Made by a program: the position numbers and the translations under genes | Notes under the pieces: generated by a model | Told to the model about the DNA's origin: nothing | Databases searched by the model: none | The model's input: the letters and a program-made list of their open reading frames with translations, nothing else | Assembly: GCA_023014335.1 (NCBI GenBank) | Contig: JAECYW010000012.1 | Location: 1,178,001 to 1,242,000 of the forward strand | DNA: 64,000 bases | Origin: Galerina marginata | Lineage: Eukaryota > Basidiomycota > Agaricomycetes > Agaricales > Galerinaceae | Direction: 5' to 3' | Shown: positions 4,709 to 27,629 of the stretch, in pieces | Layout of the letters: each line of letters opens with the position of its first letter | How positions within the stretch are numbered: the first letter of the stretch is position 1

Positions 4709-4716
4709 ATAAGAAA
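4709..4716. repeat. Target-site duplication of the KDZ element, left copy
   Basis: ATAAGAAA directly before the left terminus CACTTCAGGATCC; the same 8 bases directly follow the right terminus at 26814-26821. An 8-bp duplication is the length reported for KDZ-type elements. Confidence 0.9.
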
Positions 4717-5466
4717 CACTTCAGGATCCCAAATTGAAGTACCTCTTAGGTAGACAAAACTCCTATGTTAAACCATACCTAAGAGGTACAAAATAAAACA
4801 TTTTTGCTAACAATAAATTTACAGAAGGTATTGAAAACAATATTTTTAACAATACATTTCTTATGAACCCCCCTTCAAAAAAAAAAGATAAAATGTCTTC
4901 CATTAAGATATTTTTTAATATCTTTTAGAAATTAAAAACAATCAGGGTGTCCTGGGTCCAGGTTTCTACAAACATTTTCCCGGGCTTCTGGTAGGTTTTT
5001 ACAGTTGATTTATATATGCAGAGGCTGCATTTTTGAGCCATGTTCTGCACATCTATTGGCATCCTAAATCAAATAATATGATATAAATCCCCAGGAATTC
5101 ATTAGAATATCTGTATGCAATATATAGCCAGAACTAGCCAGAAATCAAGGATATAGTACAGCCATTTATCAGAATTTTTTCCCATATATATGGTTGGAAA
5201 TTTAAATAAATCCAGCCATAATTTTCCATATAAATTCCTAGGATATTCTGTATATATGCCAGAACTACTACATATATAGTCCAAGGATTCAAATAAATAT
5301 GCCTAGAATTTTCCATATATATGCCTAGGATTACAGCTAGGAAATCAAATAAATATGCCAAAAACTTTCCATATATATGCCCAGGATTACAGCTAGGAAA
5401 TCAAATAAATATGCCCAAAACTTTCCATATATATGCCCAGGATTACAGTTAGGAATTCAAATAAAT
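4717..5466. repeat. KDZ left terminal inverted repeat
   Basis: About 750 bp matching 26065-26813 in inverse orientation. The differences I saw are one base of a poly-A tract near 4885 and single substitutions such as near 5160. The repeat ends in the 56-bp tandem repeat region, where left and right diverge. A secondary inverted pair, ACCTCTTAGGTA and TACCTAAGAGGT (about 4740 and 4780), lies just inside the terminus. Confidence 0.88.
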
Positions 5467-5610
5467 ATGCCCAAAACTTTCCATATATATGCCCAGGATT
5501 ACAGTTAGGAATTCAAATAAATATGCCCAAAACTTTCCATATATATGCCCAGGATTACAGTTAGGAATTCAAATAAATATGCCCAGAATTTTCCATATAT
5601 ATGCCTAGCA
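5291..5610. repeat. 56-bp tandem repeat inside the KDZ left end
   Basis: Five to six copies of a 56-bp unit that starts AAATAAATATGCCCAAAACT and ends GTTAGGAATTC, the last ones degraded. About three copies in inverse orientation occur at 26065-26250, so the left end carries extra units. Candidate binding region for the transposase, by analogy only. Confidence 0.8.
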
Positions 5611-6179
5611 TTATGGATCTATGCCTGAAATTCTTATATATATGTCTATAGCCAGAATTTCAATCCAGGAATCAAGAGAAATATAAATATAATTTTCCAT
5701 ATATGTCCAGGATATTCCATATCTACAGCTGGAAATGTCTATGTGTATCACAAGAATATTTAACCTGCACCTTTAAAACAACCCCAAAAAAGTCTTTTTC
5801 AGCCCAGAATGGATTGAGAAATGGCTAATTATGTGAAATTCATCAAATTTAGCTGTATCTGAGTGATTTCTGAGCCATTTTGGGTGTTATTGGCTTGCTT
5901 TAAGTGGTAAATCTGTATAGGTAGTGGGTACAGGTCCTCATAGTACAAATATGGGTAGATGCCAGGTTTTCTAAGGCTTACTCATGCATTTGCCTACTAA
6001 CTTCTGGATCGTTATTAGGTGTGGCTAGTGTTTGAAAGTTCAGTCCTAAGACTAAAAAAAACTGAACAAGAACTGGACCAGGACCAAAAAAGACTGAATT
6101 GTACAGTCTGGTTTTTGATTTTTGAGATTGTAAGACCAGAATATCAGAGCAATGCCCTCAGTCTTATGAGCCTCAGAAA

Positions 6180-7350
6180 AAATGTTGTTAGAACATTCAA
6201 ATAAATTACAAAATTATCTTCAACAATGTTTTACAGGCTTGTAAATATGATGAAATTGTTTTCAGAACATTTTAAAGTCAAACCATTTGACAGTATCTAC
6301 TTCAAAATGAATTGTACTTTGGTAAGCCCAATAAATGATCTCTGAAAATGTTTTACAGGCTTATAACCAAGATAAAACATTTCCAGATTGTTTTTAAAGT
6401 AAATTCATTTCACAAAATCTTTTTCAAAATGTATTGCACATATTTGTAAGCAATTATCAAAAGAATTCTACAGGCTGGTCGCCGACATGAAAACATTGCC
6501 AGGACACTACCAAGTAAATTCACTTTATGAAATGTTTTTTAAAACATATTGTACATACACAGTCCAAGAAAACAATCTCCAACAATGTTTTACAGGCTTG
6601 AAAATGAGATCAAAAAATTCCCAGAACATTTCCAAAGTAAATTCATTTTTCAGAACCTTCTTCAAAAGGTATTGCCTATTTGTAAGCAATCATCAAAAAC
6701 ATTTTTCAGGCTGGTCAATAAGATGAAAACATTTTCAGAATACTTTCAAGTAAATTCATTCTATAGAATGTTCTTTAAAAGTGTATGGTACTCACATAGT
6801 TCAATAAAATGTTCTCCAACAATGTTTTGCAGGCTTGAAAGTGAGATCAAAAAATTCCTAGAACATTTCCAAGTAAATTCATTTTTCAGAACCTTCTTCA
6901 AAAGATACTGCCTATTTGTAAGCAATCATCAAAAACATTTTACAGGCTGGTCAATAAGATGAAAACATTTTCAGAATACTTTCAACTACATTCATTCTAT
7001 AGAATGTTCTTTAAAAGCATATGGTACTTATATAGTTCAATAAAATGATCTCCAACAATGTTTTACAGGCTTGAAAGTAAGATCGAAACATTTTCAGAAC
7101 ATTTTCAAAGTAAATTCCATTACAGAATCTTCTTCAAAATGTATTGCACATTTGTAAATAATCTCCAATAACATTCCACAGACTGGTCACCAAAATGAAA
7201 ACATTTCCAGAACATTTCCAAGTAAATTCATTTTATGGAACATTCTTTAAAAACATGTTGTATCTACAGAGTTCAATAAAATGTTCCAGAACTTGCAAAA
7301 AAAGTCTGCCACAATGTTCCAGGAAAATGATTTACAGTATAATCAGTCTG
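6180..7350. repeat. Degenerate subterminal repeat field of the KDZ element (left)
   Basis: Recurring anchors CAGGCTTG (about 6234, 6593, 6831, 7066) and CAGGCTGGTC or a variant (about 6473, 6707, 6945, 7179) alternate at roughly 120 nt, giving a composite period of about 238 nt with AACATTTTCAGAA-type cores. No coding sense. Similar ACATTTT-rich units lie inside the right end (25200-25800). Confidence 0.7.
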
Positions 7351-7359
7351 ACAAAATGA

Positions 7360-7834
7360 TCCTCAATCATTCATAAGGCATTAATGTACTCTAAATATGT
7401 ATCTGAATGTGCATTTCTATCAATGTGCCAAATCATTTTCAAAGCTATCCCAAAGATCAATCTGCTTGGTCACTGACCTGACAAAAAACATATTGCAAAA
7501 CAAATTACCAAGTCAAATGACCCCAAAAACATATCCCACACTTACCTGTTATCCAGTTTAAAAATTAGCTTAGGCAGAAACTTCCAGGTCAAGGAAATGA
7601 TTGTAAGTGTGGAGGTGCTAACCATAAAACTAAAATATGGTAGCTGGATCCACAATCCAAAGAAAATGAAAGACAAGATGCAGGAGTAAAGCAGGCATGA
7701 CTACTATGGGTATATACGAAATGAGAGTATTGCGAGTTGGCCAAAAGAATGACTGCAGTATAGATAGAAGGAGTTGGACCTGGTATCTAGCCTAAGACGA
7801 TCAAACACCCTAAAAATCAGCACTGAGAATCTGC
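7360..7834. other. Intergenic, 3' side of cargo gene A
   Basis: No exon or repeat is convincing here. It lies between the subterminal repeats and the stop of cargo gene A and probably holds that gene's 3' UTR. Confidence 0.4.
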
Positions 7835-10800
7835 TTACTCCTCCTGATCATCATCAGGTGAGGCATACCGAATGCGTTTGATCTGGGGCCTGTTCCGTGG
7901 AGGTGATGACATTTCTTCAATGGGAGAAGAACCCACCACCTGAGAGGGAATGCGATTGGTGGTGCGGTTAGAAGGTGGGCCTCGCATGATAGGGTTATAG
8001 AAGATATCTCGACCATCTGGCTTCACAGGAACAGAGTGAGAAGGTGGCCCAGAATAGGAAACCGCCTGGCGAGTAGGATTTGAAATGGCCTTGGATGACT
8101 GGCCAGAGTAAGATGCAGCCTGACGAGTAGCTGCTTTGGTAGTAGCAACATTGGACGATTGGGAAAGGTGGGAGTGGGGATTGCCATGGGAGTAAGTGAT
8201 GTGCGTGTACTGATTGCGACCCAAGTCACCTCGAGAATGCAAAAGTCTAGTATCTTGGATGAGTGAGTTTTGAAGGCCTTGCTGAAGGTCAACATCTTCC
8301 ATATCAACGTCAATTGGTTGTACTTCTTTAGCATTCCTTTCACGTAACTGTTTGAAGGTGTCAACCAGACTAGATCGATCACGTGGGTCACCAGTTGGAC
8401 GAGATGACCCCTGGACAAACTCATCCTCTCTCAAAGATGTATGATGAAAGAATGATGGAACAGCGGTAGGAGAGAGAGGACGGGTAGAAGGAATGTTTGG
8501 TTTGGCAATGAAGGATGTAGAAGGGCGTGAAGACTTGGTGGGTACCATTGGCTGCAATGAATCAACAGAGGAAACTTTCGATTCCTTAGGTTTAGCAATT
8601 GAAGTGTCCCGAGTCAGAGTATCCCTGATGGTGACCAACACAAGACCCATGTCAGAGACAACCAATGGGATCCTGTTGTACTGTGAAGAGCCACGTTGAT
8701 ATTCCATCTGATCTAAACAGCAAGTCAACAAAAGATTGCAAACATTCAGTCATAGAAAGCTTACCTTCAGTCCAAGGGTCAAGTTTGAACTTGAGGTCAG
8801 AAGTGTCTGCATCCTTTTTAAAGTGTTGAGGACCCAAGCCAGCAACCAAAGAGACCCAGTTCCTTGCAACAAGGGAGGTGACAAGAAACCCTGGAGCACC
8901 AGGGTGGATGAACACAGAAGAGGGCCAAGTAACAACAAATTGTTTTTTGACAGCCTCAGTACAAAGGATACTCCAAGGGAAGTTACCGCGACCAGAATTA
9001 AAACGACCTGATCCCAAATAAGTACAATCAAAACAAGAGATAACAAAGTCAGGAAACATACCATATTGATGAAGCGCCCATTTTCGGCCCAAAGCCTCAG
9101 GTGTTAGCAAAGGAAACTCAGGCTTAACAGCCGTTGAGGCACTTGAGGCTTTAACAGCAGTTGGATTCTTGGCCACTTTTGCAATCGTTGAAGTGCTCGC
9201 GGCCTGGGTAGACAGAAGACCACCGGACTTCATCTCATTACTACCAGACGCAACGTGGATGGCTGCATATTCCCCTCTGATATCACGCACCAAATGAGAA
9301 TCAACAAAAGAAACCAACAATTAAGATGCATACCTTGCCAGACCAGTTGCCCGATTAAGAAGTTGGTTCATTGGAAGCCGGCTCCTGGACACAGCATTCA
9401 TCAAGAGGCTCGACGAAAGGACACATTTACCCGGGAACTGGAGACCCAAAGGATCATCCCCAACATAGGACAACCCAGCAAAAATTTGGATCTCGGGATC
9501 CTCGGCAGTGATAGCATGGATCTAAACTTGGTCAGAGGCCATTGCTGCGCATGGCAAAAACAAGTTCTTACTTTCAAGGTGAGTCCGACTATAAATAAAG
9601 GTTAAATGAGTAAATAATGCATAGTCCGCTCAAATCTGAACCGATTGGGATGATCTTATACTCAAAAAAAGCAGAAAAATGAGGCGGATCTAACAAGCCT
9701 AAAACAACCTGGTCACGTAACCAGGAAGGCCCTGATTTTTACGATTTTTTTGAGACCAAGATCATAAAAATTGGCCCAGTAATGGCTGAGATACAGAAAC
9801 CATGCAGGGTCACTATAGCAGTGGGAGAATTTCCAACCATTGCGTTAGGAATGTTTTCTGCCTGCTATGCAGGCCAGAAAACAAGTTCTTTTACTACGTA
9901 AGAACTTGTAACAAGATTAATTATTAGACTACAATAAGAAACTTGTAACAAGATTAATTTATACGTCGCTTAGTTTTTATCAGATTGCCTTGAAACAAAA
10001 TGTGTAATTATCAGAAAAATCAGGGCTAAAATATGGTGTCACATGCGTATTGTCACATCTTCATGTGACTTCCCAAATGCGGAATATTGTTGAAAACACA
10101 GTAAATAAGCTATATTGAGAGATTTTAAAGACATTAAAATAAAATAAAAATACTGATAATGTTTTTTTTACCTAAGAGATGGTCTGTGCACACATATCAC
10201 ATGACATATCCCTGAGAATATTTTTGTCCAAGTTGGTGCATTACCAAATCCAAGGCAATTGCACAAAGTCCTGCTGTGAGTTTGATTATGTAAGCTTCTA
10301 GAACATTATTTCCATGTTATTTGGTCATGTTTTGCAATGTTTGGTGTGCCTTTTATGGGTTATCCAGTCAGTTTAACACCAATTTTGCGATTTTCACTGA
10401 GTTAAGCTGGCTGTTTGCCAGATTTGGACATCATGACATCATTGCAAAACATATGTAAATATTTGTACATTATTTTAGATTGGTCTGGGTAACATATTTT
10501 AGTATATCTAGCTCACTGAAATTCATTTTAAGTGTAAATTTACACAAATTTGCGTTTTTTGGGTCGTGTGAACAGGTCACATGACCTAATCAACCCTGGA
10601 TACACATGCCACATGAAAGCCCTGATTTTTACGATTTTTTTGAGACCAAGATCATAAAAATTGGCCCAGTAATGGCTGAGATACAGAAACCATGCAGGGT
10701 CACTATAGCAGTGGGAGAATTTCCAACCATTGCGTTAGGAATGTTTTCTGCCTGCTATGCAGGCCAGAAAACAAGTTCTTTTACTACGTAAGAACTTGTA

Positions 10801-13800
10801 ACAAGATTAATTATTAGACTACAATAAGAAACTTGTAACAAGATTAATTTATACGTCGCTTAGTTTTTATCAGATTGCCTTGAAACAAAATGTGTAATTA
10901 TCAGAAAAATCAGGGCTAAAATATGGTGTCACATGCGTATTGTCACATCTTCATGTGACTTCCCAAATGCGGAATATTGTTGAAAACACAGTAAATAAGC
11001 TATATTGAGAGATTTTAAAGACATTAAAATAAAATAAAAATACTGATAATGTTTTTTTTACCTAAGAGATGGTCTGTGCACACATATCACATGACATATC
11101 CCTGAGAATATTTTTGTCCAAGTTGGTGCATTACCAAATCCAAGGCAATTGCACAAAGTCCTGCTGTGAGTTTGATTATGTAAGCTTCTAGAACATTATT
11201 TCCATGTTATTTGGTCATGTTTTGCAATGTTTGGTGTGCCTTTTATGGGTTATCCAGTCAGTTTAACACCAATTTTGCGATTTTCACTGAGTTAAGCTGG
11301 CTGTTTGCCAGATTTGGACATCATGACATCATTGCAAAACATATGTAAATATTTGTACATTATTTTAGATTGGTCTGGGTAACATATTTTAGTATATCTA
11401 GCTCACTGAAATTCATTTTAAGTGTAAATTTACACAAATTTGCGTTTTTTGGGTCGTGTGAACAGGTCACATGACCTAATCAACCCTGGATACACATGCC
11501 ACATGAAAGCCCTGATTTTTACGATTTTTTTGAGACCAAGATCATAAAAATTGGCCCAGTAATGGCTGAGATACAGAAACCATGCAGGGTCACTATAGCA
11601 GTGGGAGAATTTCCAACCATTGCGTTAGGAATGTTTTCTGCCTGCTATGCAGGCCAGAAAACAAGTTCTTTTACTACGTAAGAACTTGTAACAAGATTAA
11701 TTATTAGACTACAATAAGAAACTTGTAACAAGATTAATTTATACGTCGCTTAGTTTTTATCAGATTGCCTTGAAACAAAATGTGTAATTATCAGAAAAAT
11801 CAGGGCTAAAATATGGTGTCACATGCGTATTGTCACATCTTCATGTGACTTCCCAAATGCGGAATATTGTTGAAAACACAGTAAATAAGCTATATTGAGA
11901 GATTTTAAAGACATTAAAATAAAATAAAAATACTGATAATGTTTTTTTTACCTAAGAGATGGTCTGTGCACACATATCACATGACATATCCCTGAGAATA
12001 TTTTTGTCCAAGTTGGTGCATTACCAAATCCAAGGCAATTGCACAAAGTCCTGCTGTGAGTTTGATTATGTAAGCTTCTAGAACATTATTTCCATGTTAT
12101 TTGGTCATGTTTTGCAATGTTTGGTGTGCCTTTTATGGGTTATCCAGTCAGTTTAACACCAATTTTGCGATTTTCACTGAGTTAAGCTGGCTGTTTGCCA
12201 GATTTGGACATCATGACATCATTGCAAAACATATGTAAATATTTGTACATTATTTTAGATTGGTCTGGGTAACATATTTTAGTATATCTAGCTCACTGAA
12301 ATTCATTTTAAGTGTAAATTTACACAAATTTGCGTTTTTTGGGTCGTGTGAACAGGTCACATGACCTAATCAACCCTGGATACACATGCCACATGAAAGC
12401 CCTGATTTTTACGATTTTTTTGAGACCAAGATCATAAAAATTGGCCCAGTAATGGCTGAGATACAGAAACCATGCAGGGTCACTATAGCAGTGGGAGAAT
12501 TTCCAACCATTGCGTTAGGAATGTTTTCTGCCTGCTATGCAGGCCAGAAAACAAGTTCTTTTACTACGTAAGAACTTGTAAAAAGAATTAGGACCTCTTC
12601 CATCCCAGGTAAACTACTAAAGGACTTACACACTGATAGACTGCTTTTTCAGCAGCCGCAAGCCTTGCACCAATTGATATCTTCGGCAACTCTTGATTGA
12701 GCTTGGCTGCCTTTGCCAAGGTTTCCTCCTTCCATTGTTCAAGACCAACGTCATCGAGGTTCTCAACAATCTTACGATAAGCGGCGCTACACTCCCTCGT
12801 GAAATCAACTAAAAGAAAAAAGGTTAGACATCTCACGTAGCACAAGCAAAATGATGTACATACCAGCCAATTGTCCCTTCGCCTTGCGTTCACGGTTATC
12901 GTGAGCATATACCTTCAGGAAAGCCATCCACGCAGAAGGAGCACGGTGAGCAGCCTGCAGTGGCACATAGCCAACATCCTTCTGCACCGTGGACATCTTG
13001 TGGTTGTGCTCCTCCGCAATGTAGTCAAGCCCAGCCTCGTAGGACATCGTCAACTTATTGCAGTCATTGAAATAAGCCTTCGAAGAACGGCCGCCAACAA
13101 GCTTATCAGTAGCGGGAACCGCGACGTCGACGTCGACATTGTCATTGCCGTCTTCGTTGGTGTCAACAGCCTTTCCTTTGCCTTTGTCAACGGCCTTTCC
13201 TTTGCCTTTGTCAACAGCCTTTCCATCGTCTTTGTCAACGGCCTTTCCCTTGCCTTTGTCAATGGTCTTCCTCTCAACAGCATTTGCACCGACTTTCCCA
13301 TTCTCCCCTCCTTCCTTCTTGCCACGGCTGGGATCTTCAATGACCACTTCACTCTCGTCACCATCACTATGGTCACCCTGAGGAGGTCCCCAAGGTAGTC
13401 CAAAGTCGGCAAGGAATTGCGTAGCCCGCTCACATTGGTTCTTGGCTCGGATAGGAACAATGTGGCCAGGGGGCACGGACCGAAACTCAGTCGTATCGGG
13501 AGCACACCACAAAGTCACTATCTCCACGTCGCCAGGTACACCAACCGCAGGAGGGACATTGGTATAGTAGACGAAGTCGAAAAACTTATACCTGTGCACA
13601 GGCAACCTATGATCCAGCCCAACCAGAGGGTGGTTATCGTCCTCTTCAGCGTCGGTTCCCACTCGGTCGATCGCGTCTTCCAAATTAAGTCGCTGCTGCC
13701 TGGGAGAGGGTTCAATCCACAGACTGACAGGCGCCGTTGCCTTTCGTGCCCTAGCAGCCGCACCCTTGCCAGTCGAAACCTTAGCCTTAATAGCAGCCTT

Positions 13801-14749
13801 TGCGGCGGCAGACTTCGCGGCGGGAACCTTTGCGGCGGCAGATTTCGCGGTGGGAGCCTTCGCGGCGGCAGACTTCGCGGTGGGAGCCTTCTTGGCGGCA
13901 GACTTCGCGACGGGAACCTTCGTGGTGCGAGCTTTCGCGGCAGGAGCTTTAGCCGCAGACACCTCCGCGACAGGAGCTCGGACAGGCGCTTTGACAGCAG
14001 ACGCGTTGGCAGCAGGTGCGGCAGGTGCTCGCGAGGGATAGCCTTTGGGAAGCCGGGGGACGAGGATATACGGCGTCCCAGGTCCGCCTAACCTGATAGT
14101 TGCCGGTGGGTCGGACGACGAGGAGCGTTCGGTGAACTTGCGCTTAACACCCGCAAGACGACCACGTTCAGTCAACGATTCCTTTCCGGCAGGCGACTCC
14201 TCTCCGGCAGGCGACTCCTCTCTAACAGGCGAGTCCTCCTTAGCAGGCGACTCCTCTCTAACAGGCGACTCCTCCCTAGCAGGCGACTCCTCTCTAACAG
14301 GCGATTCCTCCCTAGCAGGCGATTCCTCTCTAGCAGGCGATTCCTCCCTGGCATGCGCATCCTCCTCGGCAGGCGATTCCTCAGTGTCAGTGGATGAGTT
14401 GTCCGAAGAAAGCGAACGTTGTGCTAAGGACGAACGGGTCCGCGGTCGGCCTCGAGGCCTAGTAGCAAAGACGTCAGCGAACGAACAGCGGTACACCTCG
14501 CTAACACGAACCATGAAACGAAGTAAACATGGTTGTAGTCGAGACGAAGTCACAACTCAGAGGGAGACGATGTCAACCCTGTGTGCGAGGTGGAAATGTT
14601 GAGAGTGAATGAAAAACTTACACGTTATTGGCTTTCTGACGCTTGGAAGCGGTATACTCGGCAGTTGGAGACTATGCAGGCAGTGTTAGAGACCAGCACA
14701 CGAGAACAAATTGGTAGAAACTTACAACTTCGCGCTTTCTATTCGCCAT
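7835..14749 (-). CDS. KDZ cargo gene A: large AT-hook / Lys-Ala-rich protein of unknown function
   Basis: Seven exons on the minus strand: 14749-14726, 14671-14622, 14500-12864, 12808-12630, 9521-9334, 9276-8765 and 8712-7835. Together they make 3,468 nt, a frame of 1,155 residues. The third exon's acceptor at 14500 is chosen because it keeps frame; one at about 14451 would also fit. Start MANRKREVSPTAE. Residues about 37-46 hold RPRGRPRTR, an AT-hook-like core. Next comes a run of REESPA/REESPV repeats (about nine), then a long tract of AKSAAAKAPT-type repeats like histone H1 tails, then a middle part with HRYKFFDFVYYTNVPP and a Lys/Gly/Asp linker. The C-terminal half (FPDFVISCFDCTYLGSG, FVVTWPSSVFIHPGAPGF) is unfamiliar, and its tail is Ser/Pro-rich. 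The basic repeats suggest DNA or chromatin binding in the nucleus. A 3,055-bp HINE-like array sits in intron 4, five bases before the acceptor. Confidence 0.7.
9527..12581 (-). mobile_element. HINE-like array, n = 3 (385 + 3 x 890 bp)
   Basis: Read on the minus strand it begins at 12581 with TTACAAGTTCTTAC and ends at 9527 with CCTCTGACCAAG. Three 890-bp units each begin with the 5' terminus, followed by a 385-bp final unit with the 3' hairpin. The length, 3,055 bp, is exactly 385 + 3 x 890. The units look identical to each other but differ from units of other arrays (for example GAGACCAAG where others have GATACCAAG, and the palindrome reads CACGTAACC). No coding capacity. Inserted in intron 4 of cargo gene A. 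Confidence 0.85.
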
Positions 14750-15710
14750 GGTGGAGATGATGGAGGAGAGAAAGAAAGAGATATTTCAAACCCAGGAATA
14801 AAAAGAGATTGGTAAGTTTCGCTGGCAAGTTTCGCTGGCCTAAAGCTAGGGTCCTTGTGTGTCCTTGTAGTGGTCCAAGCCACTTGTAATTTAAGCGGGC
14901 GCCTTCGGCACCACGGCTATTCTCGTCCACTTTAGGAAGGAATTTCCTTCCTTGTCTAACGCTAGCGCTGTCGATCGTTCATTTAGGTCATTCATTAGAG
15001 CTTCCGACATATGTAATGTATTTTACTTCAGTCGCGTCCTTTACTTCCGCCAATAAGTGGGGTGGTCACATAGGGGTTGAGAAGGTCAGTTGTATGGTAC
15101 ATATGTTGACTCGCGACAGCCACAAGTCGCCCTCCATCCCCAAGCTCATGGTTGAATTGAAAAGTTGATGATGGAGATCTATTCGAAAGGCGCGGCCGTG
15201 CTAATAGTTGATAAATGTCTTGGGTGGCGAATACCGAACGCAAACAAGCAGAGGAAAATCTAAAGTCTCGTCAATAAATTGAAGGTAGGTTGATAACGTG
15301 AAACATACCAAGGGTGCATGGATCATCCATCGGCCCATCGTCCACCCATTCCGAAAACGTGTTGATTTGTTAATCCTTAGATCCAGAAACGCCGTCAGGA
15401 AAAGAAAAAGAACAGATCGAATCACTTACATGATCAGGCGTTGTGGTGTATCCCGTCGTTGGGAGGACTAAGGGCGGCTTTGGGCAGATGGAAATACGGC
15501 AAAAATGAGCCTTCGGACATTCACGACGGGACGGTGCTTGGGTGTTCGGGTGCTTGGGAATTCGGACGACCTTCGGTGTTCGGAAGTGCTTGGGTGTTCA
15601 TCGAATACATGAAACTTCTGAAGTTGAGAGCGGAGTCGATGCACGAGTGTGAGAGACGAGAGTCAACTCTAAGGATCGACGAAGTAAGTGAGAGACGAAG
15701 TCAATACACT
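14540..15710 (-). promoter_or_regulatory. Minus-strand cluster of the TGACTTCGTCTCTC-like motif
   Basis: On the minus strand, copies resembling GAGYTGACTTCGTCTCTC occur at about 14530-14550, 14563-14582, 15645-15668 and 15686-15706. They lie in intron 2 and upstream of cargo gene A and all point in its direction of transcription. The plus-strand clusters at 16.2-18.8 kb point the other way, with genes B and C. Function unknown; regulatory is an inference from placement. Confidence 0.45.
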
Positions 15711-17610
15711 TGGCGGGGGACGAAATCAGCCCGCAGAGGATAAAGGGGATTGTTGACGCTGCGTGCTTGTTAGTGTAAGTCCAGTGAACGAGAGAAAGTA
15801 AAGACATCACCTTAAGGAGGACCTCCAGAAGGGCGGAGACTAAGGACGAAAAGACGAACAAACCATGTCAGAGGGCGTAAGGAATGAGTTCAAAGATGAG
15901 AAGAACCAACGTGGACTGAGCCTGAGAACTAGATATCACGTGGTCAAGAACTGATCGCAATCTCTAAGTCCGCCCAACTTGATCCTTGAACACCAATCCT
16001 GATCTCCGTACCCTCTCACTGTCCAAGGAGCTAACTTCGTGTTCTCCTCGATTGAGCTGAATACATCTCTCGATTTATCCGTTAAATGTCTTTTCAGTCT
16101 CCAGCTTCTCAAACTCACGATCAAAGTCCATCGCCACAAGATCCATACGCTTTCGAACGCCGCCTAAAGTTATCCAACCTTTACCCCCTGCTTCGCACCT
16201 GTACCGAGCCTCAGAGTTGACTAAGTCTCTTTGACATTGACCTGAATTAATTAAGCAAAGGTGAGTAATGCTTCAAATTCAAGATTCCACCCTTTGCATC
16301 AGAACACCGCACTGAGAACGCCGGCCGATTTATCCAACCGTCGCCCTTACATTTTCATACCTAAACACCCTGTAGAGCTGACTGAGTCTCTCTGAACCAT
16401 GACTTATTTCTTATTTATTGTCCAGCAGCTGTAGAGCTGACTATGTCTCTCTTAATTTATTATTGCATGAGCTGACTTCGTCACTCTGTAAACTATACTG
16501 ATCTCTCCAAGTATCATTCGCCTATGTTTTCGGGTTTGGATCGTTCACGGTAGGCTCTATGTTTGTATTGCTCCGTACATACCTGACTACCTCTCACAGC
16601 CCAGAAGCCTCCGCACATCCCACTAACCACCCGTTCAAGTTAAATACCCGCTCAAGTTAAATACCTGTTCAAGTAGTATACCCGTTCAGCTTATAAGATT
16701 TTCTTGAATTGCGACGTGACGCACCTACTTTCTTCGAAACTCAAAGAGACATCGTTGAACTTCACGGTTTGCTCCCATGAAGTTGCTACGGCCTACTCTA
16801 TTCCGTCAGGCTGCTCGCTTACCCTTGAGGCGCCCATCTAACTCGTCACGATTTATGCCTCTGCAGCTCCTCAGAGAGATTACAATGACGACAGACCTGA
16901 ACGAGTCAAGCCAATACCAGATTCGCCTAGTTTTTACACCGCCCGAACGATGTATTACAACCAAATAACGCACTCGGGAAGGAGCAATTAAGTCATTTCT
17001 CCGAGACCATGACCTGCTACCGCTTCCCGTGTTTGCTAAAGCAGGCCTCCCACCTCTCCAGTCTGTATGGAAGAACCAACGAGAAATGGCTCTAGAATTC
17101 AAAACGAAGATGTCGACAACGCGATGCCGAAAGGTCACCGAGGGTTCGTAAGTTCCGCGATATATTATTTCTATCATGGATGCTGATGTCTGTCGACAGC
17201 ATACTTAGTTCAAGCGTTAATCTCCATAATTATCCCTGCTACCATTATCTTATGCGCTTTGAAGCCTGGAAACTCTGCTCATCACGGTTCAATTCACCTG
17301 ATCTTCTCCGATCTCCTTAGATCTATCCGTAGGTTGTTTTTTTTGTCATCTTTTCGACCGCCGCTCACCTCAAAGTACTTTCCCTTATGCGATGCGCGGT
17401 CATTAGGCAAATTCTCCATTGGAATGGCGGGCGCGGGCGAGCGGCGCGGCTGGCGCCTAAACCGAATCACTTCCCGATTTGGGTACACGCGGTGCACTTT
17501 GACCTTGACCGTATACTTCCTCGTCCCATTTATTCCATCCGCTCTTCAAAGTAAGTCTTCGCTCTTCTTATTTCGTTCTTATACTCAACCTGTCGTTTGT
17601 AGACTCGATC
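14750..17610. other. Divergent intergenic region between KDZ cargo genes A and B
   Basis: About 2.9 kb without a gene I can support. It contains GTGCTTGGGTGTTCGG-type short direct repeats (15535-15600), clusters of the TGACTTCGTC motif and CCGTTCAAGTTAAATA-like direct repeats (16634-16690). Open stretches at 15441-15743, 16777-16968 and 17259-17651 lack supporting splice or family evidence. It probably serves as a two-way promoter region. Confidence 0.4.
16208..16490 (+). promoter_or_regulatory. Plus-strand TGACTTCGTCTCTC-like motif cluster
   Basis: Four copies in sense orientation to genes B and C: CAGAGTTGACTAAGTCTC (about 16209), TAGAGCTGACTGAGTCTCTC (about 16373), TAGAGCTGACTATGTCTCTC (about 16433) and TGAGCTGACTTCGTCACTC (about 16468). 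Spacing is irregular. The conserved core is GAGYTGACTNNGTCTCTC. Confidence 0.45.
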
Positions 17611-18433
17611 ATGGCCGATTCTCAACACAATCTCGAACAGGCCGCGGGTAAGTCGATTTCTTTGCTGATCTTATCTCTCTTGATATTCACGGGTTCGTAC
17701 GACAGTTAAACGCGTGGGCGGCGAGTCCGATGGCTCCAAAGGTACGTACAATTCCCTCTCGAACGTTTCCGGGTGCTAAATCTCGTCCACCCGCTCAAGT
17801 TGAATGCGCCAACGGTACGCCTTATTGATCCGGGCTCTGTCGATATTGATCGGGGTGTTTTCAGCGTCGCCGACTATTGGAACCGCTCAAATTGTCGAAC
17901 CTGCGAACGGCGACGCGTCCACGACTGCGACTGAAGCCAATCAAAACGCCGGCGGCGGGGCAGGAGGTGGTGTTGAGCTCGAATGTGAGTTCCTTCTTTA
18001 TCTTTTATATCTTATTTTTGACTTCATTCTAGCCTTTCTCATACACGGCGGCACATTCGTCAATTGCCACTTCCACTCCAAGCAGGTGTACATCGCGGGG
18101 GGTACCTTTTACCAGTTTGTTGACGATTCAGGTTAGTTTCTAGTGTATCTTTTTTCTCTTTCATGCGCTGATGATATTATGCCAATTCTTTTCATTCATC
18201 TTACTTAAATTCCGGTTCATTATCTCCATTTAACGCGGGTCTTTCTATCTGCCCACTGGAAATTATTTAATCATGCCTTCTGCATGAATTAAAACAATTG
18301 CATTCACACAACCTACACCCTGATTAATATACATAAATACACCTACTGTGTACTAGCCAAAGATAAAAGAATCAAAGAGCTTGAAGAACTCGTCGAGCGC
18401 CTGTCGAAGAAAGACCGAGATTCAGAGATTTAA
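17611..18433 (+). CDS. KDZ cargo gene B: small protein with paired GGTF motifs
   Basis: Six exons (17611-17647, 17706-17741, 17800-17814, 17865-17984, 18033-18131, 18357-18433) make 384 nt and 127 residues; all five introns are phase 1. Start MADSQHNLEQ. A low-complexity Ala/Thr/Gly-rich head ends in NAGGGAGGGVELE. Then come two similar segments, FLIHGGTFVNCHFHSK and VYIAGGTFYQFVDDS (residues about 75-105), and a charged helix KELEELVERLSKKD at the end. Short GGxF-type repeats of this look are found at the N-termini of many Agaricomycete NACHT/NLR-like proteins and resemble two-repeat amyloid signalling motifs. That comparison is from memory and not tested. No enzymatic domain. It sits 468 bp before cargo gene C on the same strand. 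Confidence 0.65.
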
Positions 18434-18901
18434 ATAAGTCGTATTACTTAGTTTGTATCGGATCAAAGGCGGCTTGATCGGCATCAACGCCAAAACGGGT
18501 CTTTGTTTGCAGATGTTGTCCTGTGAGATTGATGCATCTGTTGATCGCTTCGTTCCTTCGTTCTTGAAGTCGTTCTTCTCGTTTTCGTCCAGCGTCTAGG
18601 TAAGTGCTTCTCATGCTATCTGTCCCAACCCCACTCCACGGAGCTGACTTTGTCTCTCCCGCAATTGACTTCGTCTTTTGCGATCTACCCCGACGCATGG
18701 AGTTGACATCGTCTCTCCGTGTATCACGATCTGACTGCGTCTATTCGTGTACGACGACTTGACTGTTGTCTGTCCTGCGCTCTGGCCTGGCCATTCCCCG
18801 AGTTGACTTCGTCGCTCGTTCCTATGGATCGTTCCTCCCTATCCTATATCCGACACGTCTCCTTGCCGGCCCAACAACTGACGCCCTTTCACAGTTCAAA
18901 C
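18434..18901 (+). promoter_or_regulatory. Leader of cargo gene C with a dense TGACTTCGTCTCTC-like motif cluster
   Basis: Between genes B and C at least six copies lie on the plus strand: GAGCTGACTTTGTCTCTC (18641), AATTGACTTCGTC (18663), GAGTTGACATCGTCTCTC (18700), ATCTGACTGCGTC (18730), ACTTGACTGTTGTC (18753) and GAGTTGACTTCGTCGCTC (18800). The cluster ends about 85 nt before the ATG of gene C. It could act in DNA as a factor-binding array or in RNA as a leader element; the sequence does not tell which. Confidence 0.5.
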
Positions 18902-21419
18902 ATGCCTCCTGTATACCCCCCCCACGGACCGCTTAGCTATCCATGTGAGTCGCGCTTGTTCGGATTATATCTATCTAACTTCGGGTCCATATAGACGGGA
19001 AAAAGGATTGCTACGGAATCGAACGGTTGGAGTCGGGTGCAGCAGTTTTCAGGTCGAATTGGGATGACAATGGTGCGTTCTTTTTTCTTGTTCAAATGGT
19101 CAATATCTGACTCTCATTCGATTCTTAGAAGGATGTTGGTTTTTGCATGCTTTTCGATAGGAGACCAATGCTGATCTATTATTTGGCAGTTGAATTGAAT
19201 GGTACAGATGCTTTCGTGATCGCGGAACTACCAAACTTGCGATACCGTGTACGTGGCCTGAAATGCGATGAAGATCGAGGCCTCCTGGAGACGGGGTACC
19301 GATGCCCAACCACATATTTCGTGACCTCCGGGAACATGGACTACATCCCCAATTTTGGCTGCGATACCACCACAGTCCGTCTTCGCGTAGATGGTCGCTT
19401 TGCCACCCATGATTTAATGCTCTGGCCTCAATGGTATTTCGAGAGCACCGGCTACCTACCCTATGTCTTAAAGAAGCCTCCTGCAGACAAACTCTCCACC
19501 CACGAGTACCGCCTGGCATGGTACGACCTCACGCCCAACGACTTTGAACTTGAGCCCGGTTCTATTTCGGACATTGGCATGATTTCTTTAAGTCTTAGAA
19601 GAGGAATCCATGAGCTCAAGTCAAAGCTCTACGAGAGGATTCGCGAATACTTGAAGGACAAATGCCTTTCTGAAAATAATGCGGAGGTTCGGGATCTCTT
19701 GCATTGCAACCTCCAGCAGCGATATGCATGCATTGCCCTTGAATCCTGCCCCCAGTCTTACCTCAACACCCTCATCACTTTCACATCCTTTCAGCGCCAC
19801 TTTCTTGAAGCCCTTGCCTGCCTGGATTTCTTTACAAAATGGCAAGAAATTGAACTGCGAGCCTCTTGTGGAGTCGACCTACCACTTAATACCGATATCA
19901 TTGGGTGCATAACGTCGGATCTTGTCCTTGCCCAGAAGTTTTTCGATATGGGAGTCCCATATTGGCTGGTCCGCCCGATCTCTGCATTTTCTCCGTATCT
20001 TCACATTGTAAACCCCGTCGAACGAACGAAGGCGGATATGGAAATGCAGGTTTGCGAAGAGATAGATATTGTGTGGGAAGGGGCTCCTTCCGCCCTTCGT
20101 AACCGGGCTTGTCAAACCCTCCGCATTGGCTACATTCGCATTGGACATTCTGCGAAGGATCCTCATCCTGGTGAAATCGAGTATCCTTCTGAACCTGGTA
20201 TGATTTGTTTTTGTTCGTGATTTATTTCGTTGACTTAATTGCTTGTTTACCAAATCAGCTTCTTCATCATCTCAAGCGTCTGCTGAGGCCCGTCGGCTTC
20301 ACCTGTTAAGCTCCGCGGCGGGCGACAATGGTGAGTAAATAGTCACCGATACAGCACAAGTTTTGACTGGTTTGATTAGCGTCTTCGCCATCCCGTCCTC
20401 TGTCGTCGTCGGCGCCTTCCTTACCTCGTTTCGGCGCACCATATGTTCCACGTTATCGAGTGAAGACGGGACGCCAGATCAACCTGGACAAGTTCAAGGA
20501 ACTGCCCTCGCCTAACTGTCCAGAGGCTTCTACCATTTGGGCCTTCGCTTTGAGGTCTGTTAACCCTGATTGGCATCTTGTTTGGGACCACCCCAGCCAG
20601 TCCCTTCTTCGGGGCTATCCTTTATTAGACCCGGCTGTGCTGACGGCTTCAAGCACTCGCGCCGAAGTCTATTTTCTTGCGTGGCTGCTCTTCCGTTCAA
20701 CTTGCCTCTCCCGAACCTTGGATGCTGGCTCTCGGTTGCACACCGCTACCACCAGGCGTGGGATGCCGAAACCAGGACCGCAGGAGTGGCGAGAGTTCCT
20801 GTGGCAGTTGGGTCGAGCCTTTTCGTTGAGAGAGGATGACGGCCCTCAGAGAGCTGCCAAGAAAGCGAAGATAGTGGACGATGTTGCGACGACTTTCGAT
20901 TTCCCAATCCCCGGGAGTGCCGTCGTCATGTCTGTCTTTTGGAACGGGTCACAGATCAAATCATCGTCTTCTATCGAAGCAGGTGATCGCACTTTGGATC
21001 AACGGACGCGTCAGCAAGTTGTGTGGGATCTCTATGAGCACAACTTTCGCCTGGAGCTTTTGGCTCTGGATTGCTGCATTTACCCCCGTGATATCATGCC
21101 CGATTCGGTGGCTGTGGCAAGGGATGAGATGGTGTTAGCGGTATTCCCGGATCAAAAAATCATTAGCATGCTCATCCCCTCTCGCGACGAGGGACTCGGG
21201 GCCAGAAGCTGGCGCGACAGGCTGCCATTCGTCGAAGCCTTCCGCAAGCTGCTGTCTTGGTGGCCTGGCAAAGAAGCAGCAGCGCTGAAGAAGATGTCAA
21301 TCGGATCGACGGAACAATCTGTCATGGAGGTCGAGAAATTAGCCTACGCCTTCTACTGTCGCACATTCTTCGAATTTTTCGGCCGAGCCCCTTGCACTCC
21401 GCACCGTCTACCGCAGTAA
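18902..21419 (+). CDS. KDZ cargo gene C: conserved-looking hypothetical protein, 746 aa
   Basis: Five exons (18902-18944, 18995-19072, 19190-20197, 20259-20330, 20380-21419) sum to 2,241 nt; introns are phase 1. The second intron (19073-19189, 117 nt) is chosen because nearer acceptors run into a stop. I do not recognise a named domain. The N-terminal half has a dense globular look: LPNLRYRVRGLKCDEDRG, WPQWYFESTGYLPYV, HEYRLAWYDLTPNDFE. A Ser/Ala/Pro-rich linker (residues about 375-440) separates it from a second half with NPDWHLVWDHPSQSL, a lysine-rich AAKKAKI patch and LVWDLYEHNFRLELLALD-like text. I have the impression that similar hypothetical proteins occur in other Agaricomycete genomes; this needs a search. 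Codon use and introns look like those of gene B, and it precedes the transposase by 368 bp on the same strand. Confidence 0.7.
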
Positions 21420-21787
21420 GTATGCCATATATATCATCATTGTCGTTTCTATTTGTTTTTCGTGAGTCGGTCTTTACTCCTGCTTGTTGATATACTGATC
21501 TTTGGTCACTTTAGTTGATGTATATATATATCTTCTTCGGTGAAATGCTGTGTGACGTTCTCTCGCCTGTCAGTTAATTCCGCCGCGCTCTCGCCGTTTT
21601 GTCTCTGCTGACCGCCTTACTCCCCCATCCAGATTTTTTGGCGTATTCTTGTACATACTTTGCCGAGTTGCCTTTGCGGGCTTCTCTCTATTTTAAATAA
21701 TGTGTTTGATTGTCTGTTTGATGCTGATAAGAAAGAGTCATTACGGTCTGTAAGTGCTTGTCTCTTCCTTTCCTTCCCTTGTTTGCT

Positions 21788-24700
21788 ATGCCTGCTGCTC
21801 GCTCTCGTATTCGCGCCCGGCCCAAGAGAAATGCAGTATCTGTGCAGCTGGGCCCTGGTGAATTGATTCATGAGAGTGACTGGGTTGCTCCTCGTCGGCC
21901 GCATGGTTTTTCAGCTGTTGGTTTTGGGCAGGAGGGCGGAATTCGGGCACCTGGGGGACTTTTCTATCAGGTTCCGGGTCTCGGTGGTTTTCCTTTTGGT
22001 GTAAACAACTTGGATACTCCAGATGGTGATGAGGCCATTGAATCTGATACTGGTGGGCCTGATGCTGAGGGTGATGAAGGGGGTGATGATCTGGGTGATG
22101 ATCTGGGTGATGATCTGGGTCCTGCAATAAATGAGAAGAAGAAACAGGACCCTGTGCAGACACAGAAGAGGCAGCGGCAATGGGCAAAGTGGTCTCAAGT
22201 TATCATCCCTAAGATGCTGGGGCCGTATGTGACCTTGCTTCAAGAGACTGAGTCATTACGAAATATGAGTGTAGTGGACTCTAGGGTCCTTTGCTCAGGT
22301 TGCCCTCATGGTAGTCTGCTTGAGGTCTCATCTGTTTATTTTGACAGTAAGATGTTCTTTGGTTACATATTTCACTTCAATGCTGATATATTATTGCAGG
22401 GATTGTGAAGATTCTGCTTTGTACTTGTAAGGAGCCTGCCCTTCAGCTGCTGTCACTTGGTCTCTTTCCTTGTGCTCCTACACGACCAAGCCTTGCGGTG
22501 GACCTGAGCATGCTGGAATTTGTACGAACACATTCCCAGAATGCTGCACCCAATACAACTGCATGGTGTGAGACACTTGAATCATTTCTTCGCAACAGGA
22601 AATTCAAGTTGACAACTCGAGTGAGTTATATTAGAATGTTCCTACATTGTTGCTTATCTTTTCTAGGATACTTTGCGCAAACGTTTTAGCAATGCCTTGC
22701 AGTGGTATGCTACATTACAGGACCTAAAAAACCTTACAATGCGTGATTTTCTTGATGATACTCGAGAAGTGTTGCACAACAAGACTGATCATGGTTTTGA
22801 TACGGAAGGTACGTAAATTGGTAAAAATATCACCTGCTCTAACTAATTATGTACAGATGATACTGGGATCAAGTTGACTGGGAATATAAATGAGGGTAGT
22901 GGGGGGCATGAAGGTTAGTCTATTTTCTGATATCTGAAAACCTTTATATAATAGAATACAAGATGCTGGCCATAGTTCACCAAGTGAAGCTGAGCAAGAC
23001 AGTAAAAGTCAGCTTATTATTTAGTAATATCAGATAGTTTGGCTAATGCAATGCAGATGATGTTGGCCTTGACCGACCTAGTGAATACTTAAGAGAAAGA
23101 TGTCCTTTGTGCTTTGGGGGATCCAATTGGCATCAGCCAGAGGAATTGTAGGTTATTGTTGTATGTATTCTTTGAAGTAAAGTTGATTTTTATTCATATA
23201 GGGTTGATGTTATCGTTTGTCTTGATGCTTGTTTCACGCAAAAAAGAAGGAAGTCCCAGGGAAATGCATGGACTGCTCCTCGTGAACATCCAGAGACTGT
23301 ATTTGTTCCTGAGGAGGATGTTAAGGTCATGGAAGCAATTGTTGAAGAGGCACGTCCTTCTCGGAAACAGAAACCATCAGGCAATAAGTATTATGAATCG
23401 GGCATGAAAGTCCCTACTGCAGTGTTGGATCAATGCCATGAGTCATTTATATCAGCTGACTCAAGTCGTGCTAAGGCTAGCACTCAGCTTTTTGCTGATA
23501 CTGGGTTCATGGGCCTTTTATGTCGCCATGACAGAGTTCTCTGGCTAGTCAATATGACTTCTGCTGGTGAAAAACAGTACTATGCACTGTGCCTTCTGGA
23601 CAAGTTTTTTGACCACATTCCTAAAGCTATGCGGGCTGGCATACTATATGATATTGGATGTCAACTTCACCGCAGCTGCTTGAAGTACGGCTTTCTTGAT
23701 GATGTTATGGACCGCATAACTTTTGGAATATCTGTTTTTCATGCCTATGGTCATCAATGGCCTTGCCAGATCATATATCACCCTCGCAAGTGTGTTGGCT
23801 TTGGACTAACAGATGGAGAAGGATGTGAACGGTTTTGGAGTTCAATCAAGTCTCTGATTCCCTCTTTACGTGTCTCTGGATATTATACTCGGCTGTATGC
23901 AATTGATACAAAGATCAAACATGTAGACCAAACATCGCTTATGGGAATGGGAAAATGGCTTCGGCGGAAGTGGATTGCAACTATGGACAGAAAAGCAGAT
24001 GCTATGGAGGCATTGGCTACTGTATATGATAATGGGATCAGTGAAGATATTATTCGGGCAGAGTGGGCTGCACAAGTTGAACAGCAAACAAAGCCTTTGG
24101 CTCGCCAGGGGAAAAATTTGGCGGATAAGGAGATATATGCAATTCTGATTTTGCAGGAACAACTCGATGCCTATACTAAGGACCAAGCTGTTTATCAGGA
24201 TATGTTGACAACTGGCAATTATGAGTCGGGATTGACCATTATTGAAGTTGAAGCATATCTCAATGATTTCCAGGCAAAGATAAAGAATGTTCTAAGGTCA
24301 ATTCAAAACAAAAAGGACAATCTATCAATAGATGATAAGGCAAATCTGAAGAGGCTCTTGGGCAACAAGTTTTTGCAAACTCGCATGAATGCTCTGGCTG
24401 TAAAACAGCGAATACGCGAAAGACTTTGCCAGCGCAAATTTGAACTTAATAGTCTTGAAAGATCTTACCGAAAAACCATCAATCGGATCAAGTTGGAAAA
24501 GCATGCCCAACAGCAGTTAAAGCGAAAGGAACCAGGTATTCAGGTTTTGGTTAAAAAGTACAATAAGCTTTGTGAAGAATTGGGGAAATTGATTAAAGGG
24601 AAAAGAGCTCCGAGAGGTGCAGTAGCACCTCTCATCATTGATACCAACAAGTTGTTTGAACTTGATGTGGATGATGATATATGGCAGGATGTTGGGCTGA

Positions 24701-25167
24701 CTGATGATCATGATGATCATGATACAATTCCTGGTTGGCTAGGCAATGATGATATAAGAGCTGGAATCAAAGCTCAATTGGAGCTTGATCGATGTGTTGA
24801 GGAGGAACGACGGCTGAAAAAAGAGAGAACATCAATGCAGCAATGGTTTTTGGAAGAATGGCATGTTATGGAAATGGCATATAACTCCTCAAGCAATGTT
24901 GATATAATCTACCAACTCCAACTGCATAAGGAATATTTGCTACAATTGTGTCTTACCTGGGAGACAATAGTCCGAGTGATTCCATGTTCCTTATCAGATA
25001 GCTGGGGCCCCACTGAAGAAGACTTATCAGCTGCTAAATTGCAAGAAGTAACAGAACAAGTTTACCATATAACAAATAAGGAAGATAGTGATGGTATATC
25101 TGATGAAGAGTCAGATGCTAGTGATGGTGCATCGGTTTTGGATATATTGGAAGAAACATTTTTTTAG
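21788..25167 (+). CDS. KDZ transposase (DDE type) with CxC-type zinc-binding head
   Basis: Seven exons (21788-22346, 22400-22620, 22667-22808, 22857-22913, 22963-23001, 23057-23147, 23202-25167) sum to 3,075 nt, 1,024 residues. It catalyses excision and integration of the element and acts in the nucleus. Visible parts: basic start MPAARSRIRARPKR, acidic GDDLGDDLG repeats, and a CSGCPHG...LLCTC cysteine cluster (about 175-200) as in CxC heads of KDZ transposases. RCPLCFGGSNWHQ follows. The catalytic core has VCLDACFTQKR (first Asp, about 377), ILYDIGCQLHRS (about 517) and GLTDGEGCERFWSSIK (Glu, about 576), matching the DDE arrangement of the family. The last 400 residues are a charged, probably coiled-coil region. 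No stop or frameshift was seen, so it may be active; the near-identical inverted repeats and perfect 8-bp duplication fit recent transposition. Confidence 0.88.
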
Positions 25168-26064
25168 TAGTTGAACAAATTATTTCTTCTGTTGGCAAAG
25201 GATAGTGTAGTACCAGTATGTTTGCTGCAAATGTTTTTCAAATTTGGACAAAAATTGAAAATGTTTTGGATAGAATATTTTACTAGGTTGATTAGACTGG
25301 AAAACATTTTGAAAACCTTTTTTTGAATATATTTTCTGGCTGTTGAGACTGGAAACATTTTGAATATCTTTTTTAGAACACATTTTGATGAAGACAAGCC
25401 AGCAAAACATTTTGAATAACCTGTCTGAAGAATGAAATGTTTTGGATAGAACATATTTCCAAATTGATTGGATTGGAGATCATTTTGGAGATCATTTTGA
25501 AATACATTTTTAAAACATATTTCCAGGCTGTCAAGTCTAGAAACATTTTACCATTTTGAGGGAGCCCAGACAACAAAACATTTTGAATAATCTTGCTCAG
25601 AACATTTTGAGTATCTTTCTCAGCAGATATTTTGAAGCTGATGAGAAAACAAAACATTTGGGATATTTTTTCATATTGTGAAACTGATTAGTGTATAAAT
25701 GTTTTCTGATGATTTCTTTTAGATCTGACTTGACTGCAAAACATTCTGCATGCTATTTTCAAAACATATTTCAACTTTTCAAGTTTGAACCTTTTTTGTT
25801 GTGTTGACCAGTTCAGGTTTTACTTTGCCTATTTTGGAAGCTATCTGAATTTGGGTTAATATAAGGTATAAAGGCATAGATAGACAATAGGTATATGAGA
25901 GAAATAGTCTGGAGTAGATAGGCCAATGACATTGGTGACCTATGAGATCTCAGCAACTACCAATACCCTGTTTGCACTTCATACCCATGGACCTATGCAG
26001 ATTTGCCAGTCAAATCAAGTCAAAAAACAGTCAAATCACCCTAAAAATATGTGAAATACAGTTG
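25168..26064. other. KDZ right subterminal region with degenerate repeats
   Basis: No gene. Units rich in AAACATTTTGAAT and AACATATTTCCA recur from about 25200 to 25780 with loose spacing; in style they are the inverse counterpart of the field at 6180-7350. 25800-26064 shows nothing distinctive. Confidence 0.5.
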
Positions 26065-26813
26065 ATTTATTTGAATTCCTAACTGTAATCCTGGGCATAT
26101 ATATGGAAAGTTTTGGGCATATTTATTTGATTTCCTAGCTGTAATCCTGGGCATATATATGGAAAGTTTTTGGCATATTTATTTGATTTCCTAGCTGTAA
26201 TCCTAGGCATATATATGGAAAATTCTAGGCATATTTATTTGAATCCTTGGACTATATATGTAGTAGTTCTGGCATATATACAGAATATCCTAGGAATTTA
26301 TATGGAAAATTATGGCTGGATTTATTTAAATTTCCAACCATATATATGGGAAAAAATTCTGATAAATGGCTATACTATATCCTTGATTTCTGGCTAGTTC
26401 TGGCTATATATTGCATACAGATATTCTAATGAATTCCTGGGGATTTATATCATATTATTTGATTTAGGATGCCAATAGATGTGCAGAACATGGCTCAAAA
26501 ATGCAGCCTCTGCATATATAAATCAACTGTAAAAACCTACCAGAAGCCCGGGAAAATGTTTGTAGAAACCTGGACCCAGGACACCCTGATTGTTTTTAAT
26601 TTCTAAAAGATATTAAAAAATATCTTAATGGAAGACATTTTATCTTTTTTTTTGAAGGGGGGTTCATAAGAAATGTATTGTTAAAAATATTGTTTTCAAT
26701 ACCTTCTGTAAATTTATTGTTAGCAAAAATGTTTTATTTTGTACCTCTTAGGTATGGTTTAACATAGGAGTTTTGTCTACCTAAGAGGTACTTCAATTTG
26801 GGATCCTGAAGTG
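26065..26813. repeat. KDZ right terminal inverted repeat
   Basis: Inverse copy of 4717-5466, 749 bp, ending in CAATTTGGGATCCTGAAGTG. It contains about three of the 56-bp units. It is one base shorter than the left repeat because of the poly-A/poly-T tract near 26645. Confidence 0.88.
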
Positions 26814-26821
26814 ATAAGAAA
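26814..26821. repeat. Target-site duplication of the KDZ element, right copy
   Basis: ATAAGAAA directly after the right terminus, identical to 4709-4716. On the minus strand these bases (TTTCTTAT) belong to codons of the SET gene. Confidence 0.9.
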
Positions 26822-27557: not shown

Positions 27558-27629
27558 TGGAGTGAGTGAAAGAAATTAAAGCTCATTGTAGTATTCTGGA
27601 ATCTTATATAGACATACCCTCATAGGTTT

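Follow-up and report, generated by a model that had tools for sequence, protein, structure and literature searches.

A 22-kb KDZ transposon of Galerina marginata and its probable place in a multi-gene transposon lineage

Structure of the element and its target site

The window analysed here is a 64,000-bp stretch of the Galerina marginata genome (G000:C4:1178001-1242000 in our numbering of genome and contigs; positions without a contig prefix are counted from its first letter), and it contains a KDZ transposon, E1. According to its ends and an end-motif search, the whole element comprises 22,097 bp (4717..26813). Comparison of the flanks revealed a perfect 8-bp target-site duplication, ATAAGAAA (left, 4709..4716; right, 26814..26821). 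The left terminal inverted repeat, which starts with CACTTCAGGATCC (4717..5466, plus strand), and the right one (26065..26813, minus strand) are identical at 748 of 750 aligned columns, the differences being one substitution and one 1-bp gap. These values confirm the preliminary description of the locus as a 22-kb unit with inverted repeats of about 750 bp and a perfect 8-bp duplication. The recent movement also proposed there is compatible with the near-identity of the arms; however, gene conversion can homogenise arms as well.

Within the arms, a palindrome with 14-bp halves, perfect in E1 (4739-4752 and 4776-4789; span 4739..4789), is also present in the right arm. In the sister element E2 and in a 3.5-kb copy of the ends, both described below, the centre of the palindrome departs from that of E1, the change being mirrored between the halves, and at one outer base there is a difference that is not mirrored. 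In addition, motif scans detected subterminal arrays of TATATATGCC. On the left, seven copies form a tandem repeat, mostly at 56 bp spacing (5251..5605, plus strand), four of them within the terminal repeat and three beyond it; on the right, four copies in inverted orientation lie within the terminal repeat (26094..26280, minus strand). No further copy in the orientation of the left array exists elsewhere in E1, and TATATATGCC does not occur in the remaining 41.9 kb of the window outside the element. The shorter motif TATATGCC has ten copies in 1,884 bp at the right end of E2 and two copies each at the left end of E2, where a repeat is nested, and at the left end of the 3.5-kb copy.

The insertion of E1 splits an exon of a SET-domain gene, whose 5' part (26814..27575, minus strand, recognised by a SET profile match) adjoins the right end and whose remainder lies left of 4716; the gene is the target and not part of the element. 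The joined flanks match the SET profile with an E value of 2.3e-9, against 0.014 and 0.010 for the separate halves. A 470-bp joined-flank query was searched against the genome (69.3 Mb in 43 contigs); all distribution searches, namely those for KDZ, for the genes B, AC and D introduced below, and for the end motif, were likewise confined to this one genome. Of 33 matches, 18 span the entire query uninterrupted, 13 at 95-99% identity and five at 78-79%; the other 15 comprise the two flanks of E1 itself and otherwise partial matches. In each of three uninterrupted copies that were inspected base by base, ATAAGAAA is single. An empty site, as sought by the preliminary description, is therefore provided by paralogues of the target elsewhere in this genome, not by the same locus from another strain.

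The SET-domain gene split by E1 (window positions 4117-4716 and 26822-27575) is repeated at 78-99% identity. Because it is repeated in the genome and one copy is located inside E2, it probably rides on another mobile element.

Coding capacity of E1

The KDZ transposase gene (21788..25167, plus strand, six exons) encodes 1,011 aa in a hand-spliced model that is free of internal stops and apparently intact. Pfam searches with this model identified the KDZ domain PF18758 (E 4.5e-61; 206.7 bits, cut-off 26.6) and the CxC1 cysteine cluster (E 3.7e-6; 27.5 bits, cut-off 26.9), and CxC2 reached 21.9 bits, under its cut-off of 27. The complete KDZ frame reported before is upheld by these results; its length was given there as 1,024 residues, presumably owing to a different intron choice. 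By its domain, cysteine cluster, repeats and duplication, E1 is a KDZ element. The 7-8 bp duplications that characterise this group are found throughout, their length being 8 bp in E1 and E2 and also in the 3.5-kb copy, and 7 bp in two further copies of 8.4 and 3.7 kb. Outside the transposase, none of the open reading frames (ORFs) of the element scanned against Pfam gave a match over the curated cut-off.

Gene AC (7838..14514, minus strand) was delimited by exon comparison with E2 and by profile searches. In E1, two minus-strand stretches, 7838-9521 and 12591-14587, resemble separate genes. A tandem repeat element of 3,062 bp with an 890-bp unit (9525..12586) is nested between them; it starts some tens of bases into the intron predicted for AC and is absent at the same place in E2. 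Because E2 carries the same exons contiguously, exon comparison identifies AC as a single gene and the nested repeat as no part of the original unit. The earlier count of three multi-exon genes besides the transposase is thus retained (AC, D and B), with two apparent minus-strand genes merged into one. The N-terminus of AC consists of basic and acidic low-complexity sequence, and the C-terminal part is conserved; the protein also has a PRGRPR motif, which we take to be AT-hook-like. Sub-threshold Pfam matches of AC to Extensin_1 (E 0.0012 and 0.0015) were attributed to chance or low complexity.

Gene B (18902..21419, plus strand; exons 18902-18944, 18995-19072, 19190-20197, 20259-20330 and 20380-21419) encodes 746 aa. 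The alignment of the B family has many invariant positions in both halves, and the single-sequence fold prediction of one exon gave a mean predicted local distance difference test score of 34.6, too low to be informative. One of 11 B pieces matched an FKBP-like family below threshold (E 0.0037), which was put down to chance or low complexity, and the best PDB profile matches had E values of 0.19 and 0.88 and were taken as chance. Weaker sub-threshold Pfam matches in the ORFs of the element were likewise ascribed to chance or low complexity.

Gene D (about 17611..18433, plus strand) is predicted, on a tentative splice model, to encode a small protein with a charged helix-like stretch at its end. 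Collinear matches were found in E2 and in B-containing units at C22 and C40. On this distribution D appears to be a gene of the E1 subfamily, and it may have been captured.

Sister element E2 and other copies of the ends

A search of the 69.3 Mb for the 13-bp end CACTTCAGGATCC gave 14 occurrences, compared with one for the reversed control. Ten of these ends form five pairs and four are unpaired. Apart from E1, the pairs delimit E2, of 78,968 bp, with the perfect 8-bp duplication CATTCTAA (C6:1770354-1849321); the 3.5-kb copy, with the perfect 8-bp duplication CCAGATAT (C6:1908253-1911779); and the 8.4-kb and 3.7-kb copies (C12:3436048-3444462 and C34:2669106-2672830), each with a 7-bp duplication. 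The 7-bp duplications depart from a strict 8 bp but fall within the 4-8 bp range described for KDZ2 and KDZ3 of Cryptococcus neoformans.

For E2, 40 kb of the 79 kb and both ends were compared with E1. AC, D, B and KDZ are collinear in the two elements and agree in orientation. Nested in E2 are repeat arrays, close to either end, and a copy of the SET gene (C6:1800930). In the searches, which score the best candidates only, the three short copies contain no listed KDZ, B or AC match. The preliminary description had looked to other copies of the ends for a decision: the same genes between the same ends would support one mobile unit, and ends that always enclose only the transposase would speak against it. 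The former was found in E2, which has its own 8-bp duplication, as one further copy only. The latter did not occur, for two of the five paired copies hold AC, D, B and KDZ and the other three are the short copies. Together with the duplications and the empty sites, E2 bears out a single large cut-and-paste unit that has moved.

Genome-wide association of KDZ, B and AC

A PF18758 search yielded 135 matches in the genome, and the association was scored on the 20 best (at least 210 bits). A search with B gave 37 exon matches, which were grouped by hand into 29 loci. B is located upstream of KDZ on the same strand at all 20 of the best KDZ matches, and the gap between the two matches is 1,518-1,790 bp in 17 cases and 2,551, 8,135 and 11,282 bp in the other three. 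Two more B loci (C6:1892017 and C10:442004) adjoin lower-scoring KDZ matches. Neither B nor AC accompanies the next two KDZ matches in the ranking, the 21st and 22nd.

An AC-like gene was first noticed in a diverged family on contig C4, on the opposite strand and beyond B. It has motifs in common with AC of E1 and is 31% identical to it over the aligned C-terminal part. With the search restricted to that stretch, BLAST gave E values of 2e-5 to 4e-5 for one AC exon, against 0.019 for the best control hit. Profile comparison of AC between diverged families gave a probability of 95.3%, whereas six shuffles and one reversed sequence gave 0.3% or less. The C4 protein, searched against the genome at E values up to 0.05, produced 29 exon matches, and E1's own reached just 0.0036; because AC is the fastest-evolving of the three genes, it is hard to recognise in other families. 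Counting these matches and AC of E2, which came from a separate search, AC lies beyond B on the opposite strand, on the expected side, within 60 kb at 19 of the 20 loci and within 17 kb at 17.

AC, B and KDZ keep the same relative orientation in diverged families. The identity of KDZ to the C4 copy ranges from 58 to 89% among nine others compared, which points to several such families. Two C4 regions carrying AC, B and KDZ (C4:748001-766000 and C4:889001-907000) are 99.98% identical over at least 17.9 kb; the boundaries of the C4 family were not found within these two copies, and the duplication that holds them extends past the 18 kb read. A third C4 copy, near C4:1017526-1029985, matches in the gene searches.

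E1 and E2 were also compared at synonymous and nonsynonymous sites. In KDZ, represented by its longest exon, the synonymous divergence (dS) is 1.08 and the ratio of nonsynonymous to synonymous divergence (dN/dS) 0.096; exons 3 and 5 of B have dS values of 1.09 and 0.86, with ratios of 0.117 and 0.156, and the four AC exons compared have dS values of 1.13-1.52, with ratios of 0.21-0.41. Judged from these ratios, KDZ, B and AC are under purifying selection, and their similar dS values support co-descent, as support rather than proof.

Meanwhile, four B loci that are alike have no KDZ match nearby (C12:1896421, C17:434324, C22:268114 and C40:3091333). Their copies are 89.7-98.6% alike and have a common 3' edge, ending at about the same point, with different flanks. 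D is present upstream of B at C22 and C40, the two loci whose upstream side was read; these B-D units share edges there, with no convincing inverted repeats.

A KDZ lineage that probably encodes several proteins

We regard E1, with good confidence, as an autonomous-type cut-and-paste KDZ transposon whose lineage encodes not one protein but several. In this lineage AC and B appear to be inherited components and not passengers, because they accompany 19 and 20, respectively, of the 20 best KDZ matches. For the same reason the designation of B and AC as cargo genes in the preliminary description is not sustained.

A functional model, which we rate at slightly less than even odds, can be built on this view: the lineage would be a multi-protein system in which the transposase is joined by two obligatory families, B and AC, that bind the subterminal arrays and assemble ends 20-80 kb apart. 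The KDZ transposase with its CxC1 cluster would cut the CACTTCAGG...CCTGAAGTG ends and join them to an 8-bp staggered target. AC, as a candidate DNA-binding protein, would recognise the TATATATGCC arrays or the palindromes of the arms and bring the distant ends together, and B would support the transposase within the end complex, either structurally or as a regulator; D is a subfamily gene to which the model assigns no role. The subterminal arrays suggest a dedicated end-binding protein, for which we infer AC to be the best candidate from its presumed AT-hook and an HMG-like stretch. We know of no other multi-subunit KDZ machine.

Several observations weigh against the multi-gene reading or the model derived from it. 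The roles proposed for AC, B and D are drawn solely from architecture: the HMG-like stretch of AC falls short of the family's threshold (E 0.11), and B, searched as a single protein and as an alignment, has no credible relative in Pfam or the PDB. The association also has exceptions. By eye, seven of the 29 B loci have no KDZ partner (the four at C12, C17, C22 and C40, and C34:3304052, C39:1054691 and C3:1486496); one of the 20 KDZ loci, C10:193672, is without an AC match; and three AC matches are without a B-KDZ partner (C39:1128823, E 4.9e-5; C42:1918779, E 0.008; C23:2808946, E 0.0099). Two of the AC matches counted are weak (E 0.016 and 0.017) and were included mainly by position, and the distance from AC to KDZ reaches 40 kb at C39:692625 and 53 kb in E2. 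The stretches read on C4, C39 and C1 yielded no match to D. Nor are all of the 20 loci independent, as two C4 copies share a duplication of more than 18 kb and the third C4 copy and a C1 pair look alike. With dS values around 1 or higher, saturation is close and the similarity of dS is a weak test. In the short copies on C12 and C34, 7 bp of the flanks match and the eighth base differs. Finally, the transposase gene of E2 is interrupted by insertions of about 9 kb and 0.4 kb, and because of these insertions E2 probably makes no working transposase now.

The conserved multi-gene unit might also be correctly recognised and its companion genes misassigned, AC and B serving anti-silencing or target choice instead of end synapsis. 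This is the strongest alternative, though we think it unlikely. Transposon-encoded TET/JBP enzymes have been proposed to counter silencing in fungi (PMC12730594), and the fast evolution of AC, with dN/dS up to 0.41, is what an arms race would be expected to produce. However, the Pfam and PDB searches found no catalytic domain in B or AC, and the arrays near the ends suggest dedicated end-binding proteins.

It is considerably less probable that E1 is a cargo carrier, which captured host genes and moves them as a Starship does. Much of its coding DNA does lie beyond the transposase, D is seen in the E1 subfamily only, and B recurs free of KDZ at four alike loci, with D at the two read upstream; in addition, captured TET/JBP genes are carried by fungal KDZ elements elsewhere (PMC12730594). 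Against capture stand the presence of B at 20 and of AC at 19 of the 20 best KDZ matches, the similar dS of the three genes (near saturation as it is) and the lack, among the ORFs scanned, of any Pfam match over the cut-off apart from the transposase.

A composite origin, in which unrelated genes and repeats became nested in a small KDZ element and are merely enclosed by its ends, is very improbable. Nesting itself is real, both in the 3-kb repeat at 9525-12586 and in the other elements within the 79-kb E2, but apart from nested repeats E1 and E2 agree in the order AC, D, B, KDZ, and AC, B and KDZ recur in the same relative orientation across diverged families. That the arms are two short non-autonomous copies which happen to flank unrelated DNA is scarcely credible: short copies do share these ends (3.5, 3.7 and 8.4 kb), but the same 8-bp duplication outside both arms, matching the empty sites, contradicts a chance pairing, and E2 repeats the arrangement with a different duplication.

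The several-protein lineage favoured here defines two protein families, AC and B, to be characterised, and these conserved companions together with the subterminal arrays provide a testable model of a multi-protein KDZ complex. If true, a multi-subunit KDZ machine would explain the mobility of such large units. The related copies, empty sites and short relatives within one genome make this a tractable system. Meanwhile, genes in a large fungal transposon should not be called cargo until their distribution has been checked; here, comparison within the same genome turned "cargo" into "core".

Other repeats in the window

At 3875-4280, 9525-12586, 30922-34680, 46823-48988, 50773-52048 and 58808-60084 there are repeats in which one edge is fixed and the number of 843- or 890-bp units varies. 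About 44 bp of this edge recur at the edge of a minus-strand Helitron-like element (window positions about 42822-54456), which has PIF1 helicase, Helitron_like_N and DUF6570 frames and is interrupted by the tandem-unit repeat at 46823-48988. The 843- and 890-bp-unit repeats are possibly non-autonomous Helitron relatives.

Comparison with known systems

Among fungal KDZ transposons, KDZ1, KDZ2 and KDZ3 of C. neoformans have a transposase with KDZ and CxC1 and terminal inverted repeats; their duplications are 8 bp for KDZ1 and 4-8 bp for KDZ2 and KDZ3, and their insertion into a reporter gene has been observed (PMC12810828). They are smaller than E1, at about 9-11 kb with repeats of 139-241 bp against 22 kb and 750 bp, and the available text of that report names no companion proteins, in contrast to AC, B and D of E1 (PMC12810828). 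The available portions of PMC8290104 and PMC12062965 add nothing on companion genes.

In Agaricomycetes, Kyakuja and Zisupton elements carry a TET/JBP dioxygenase gene beside the transposase (PMC12730594). Membership of the KDZ superfamily and an extra gene beside the transposase are common to these elements and E1. Zisupton makes 8-bp duplications, as does E1; the Kyakuja families described there have 7-bp duplications and no inverted repeats, and the long inverted repeats and 8-bp duplication of E1 argue against Kyakuja as so described (PMC12730594). Among the 18 TET/JBP (PF12851) matches listed for the genome, none is inside E1 or E2 and none, by eye, adjoins the 20 B-KDZ loci. The three strongest are on the opposite strand from lower-scoring KDZ matches that have no B (C3:1336006, C10:915502 and C39:263804), at a distance of 3.6-4.4 kb, which shows that the known TET-KDZ association exists in this genome too. 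In the literature examined, as far as its available text goes, the descriptions of fungal KDZ transposons comprise a transposase and in some cases a captured TET/JBP gene; the AC/B lineage adds companions of another kind.

The preliminary description also likened E1 in concept to Starships, a likeness that is not supported. Starships of Pezizomycotina are large multi-gene mobile units with a DUF3435 tyrosine recombinase and true cargo. E1 resembles them as a large fungal multi-gene unit, but has instead a KDZ transposase, long inverted repeats and lineage-conserved genes: the variable host-derived cargo that marks Starships is not what is seen, since B is present at all 20 of the best KDZ matches and AC at 19. 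A search for DUF3435 gave no match in this genome, but none in control genomes either, and Pfam gave none among the ORFs of the element scanned.

A parallel may be offered by two-gene elements such as CACTA/EnSpm, with TnpA and TnpD, and MuDR, which encode a transposase and a helper, the helper binding subterminal repeats. They differ from E1 in transposase superfamily and duplication length. The model proposed for E1, if correct, would parallel the division of labour between TnpA and TnpD in CACTA elements.

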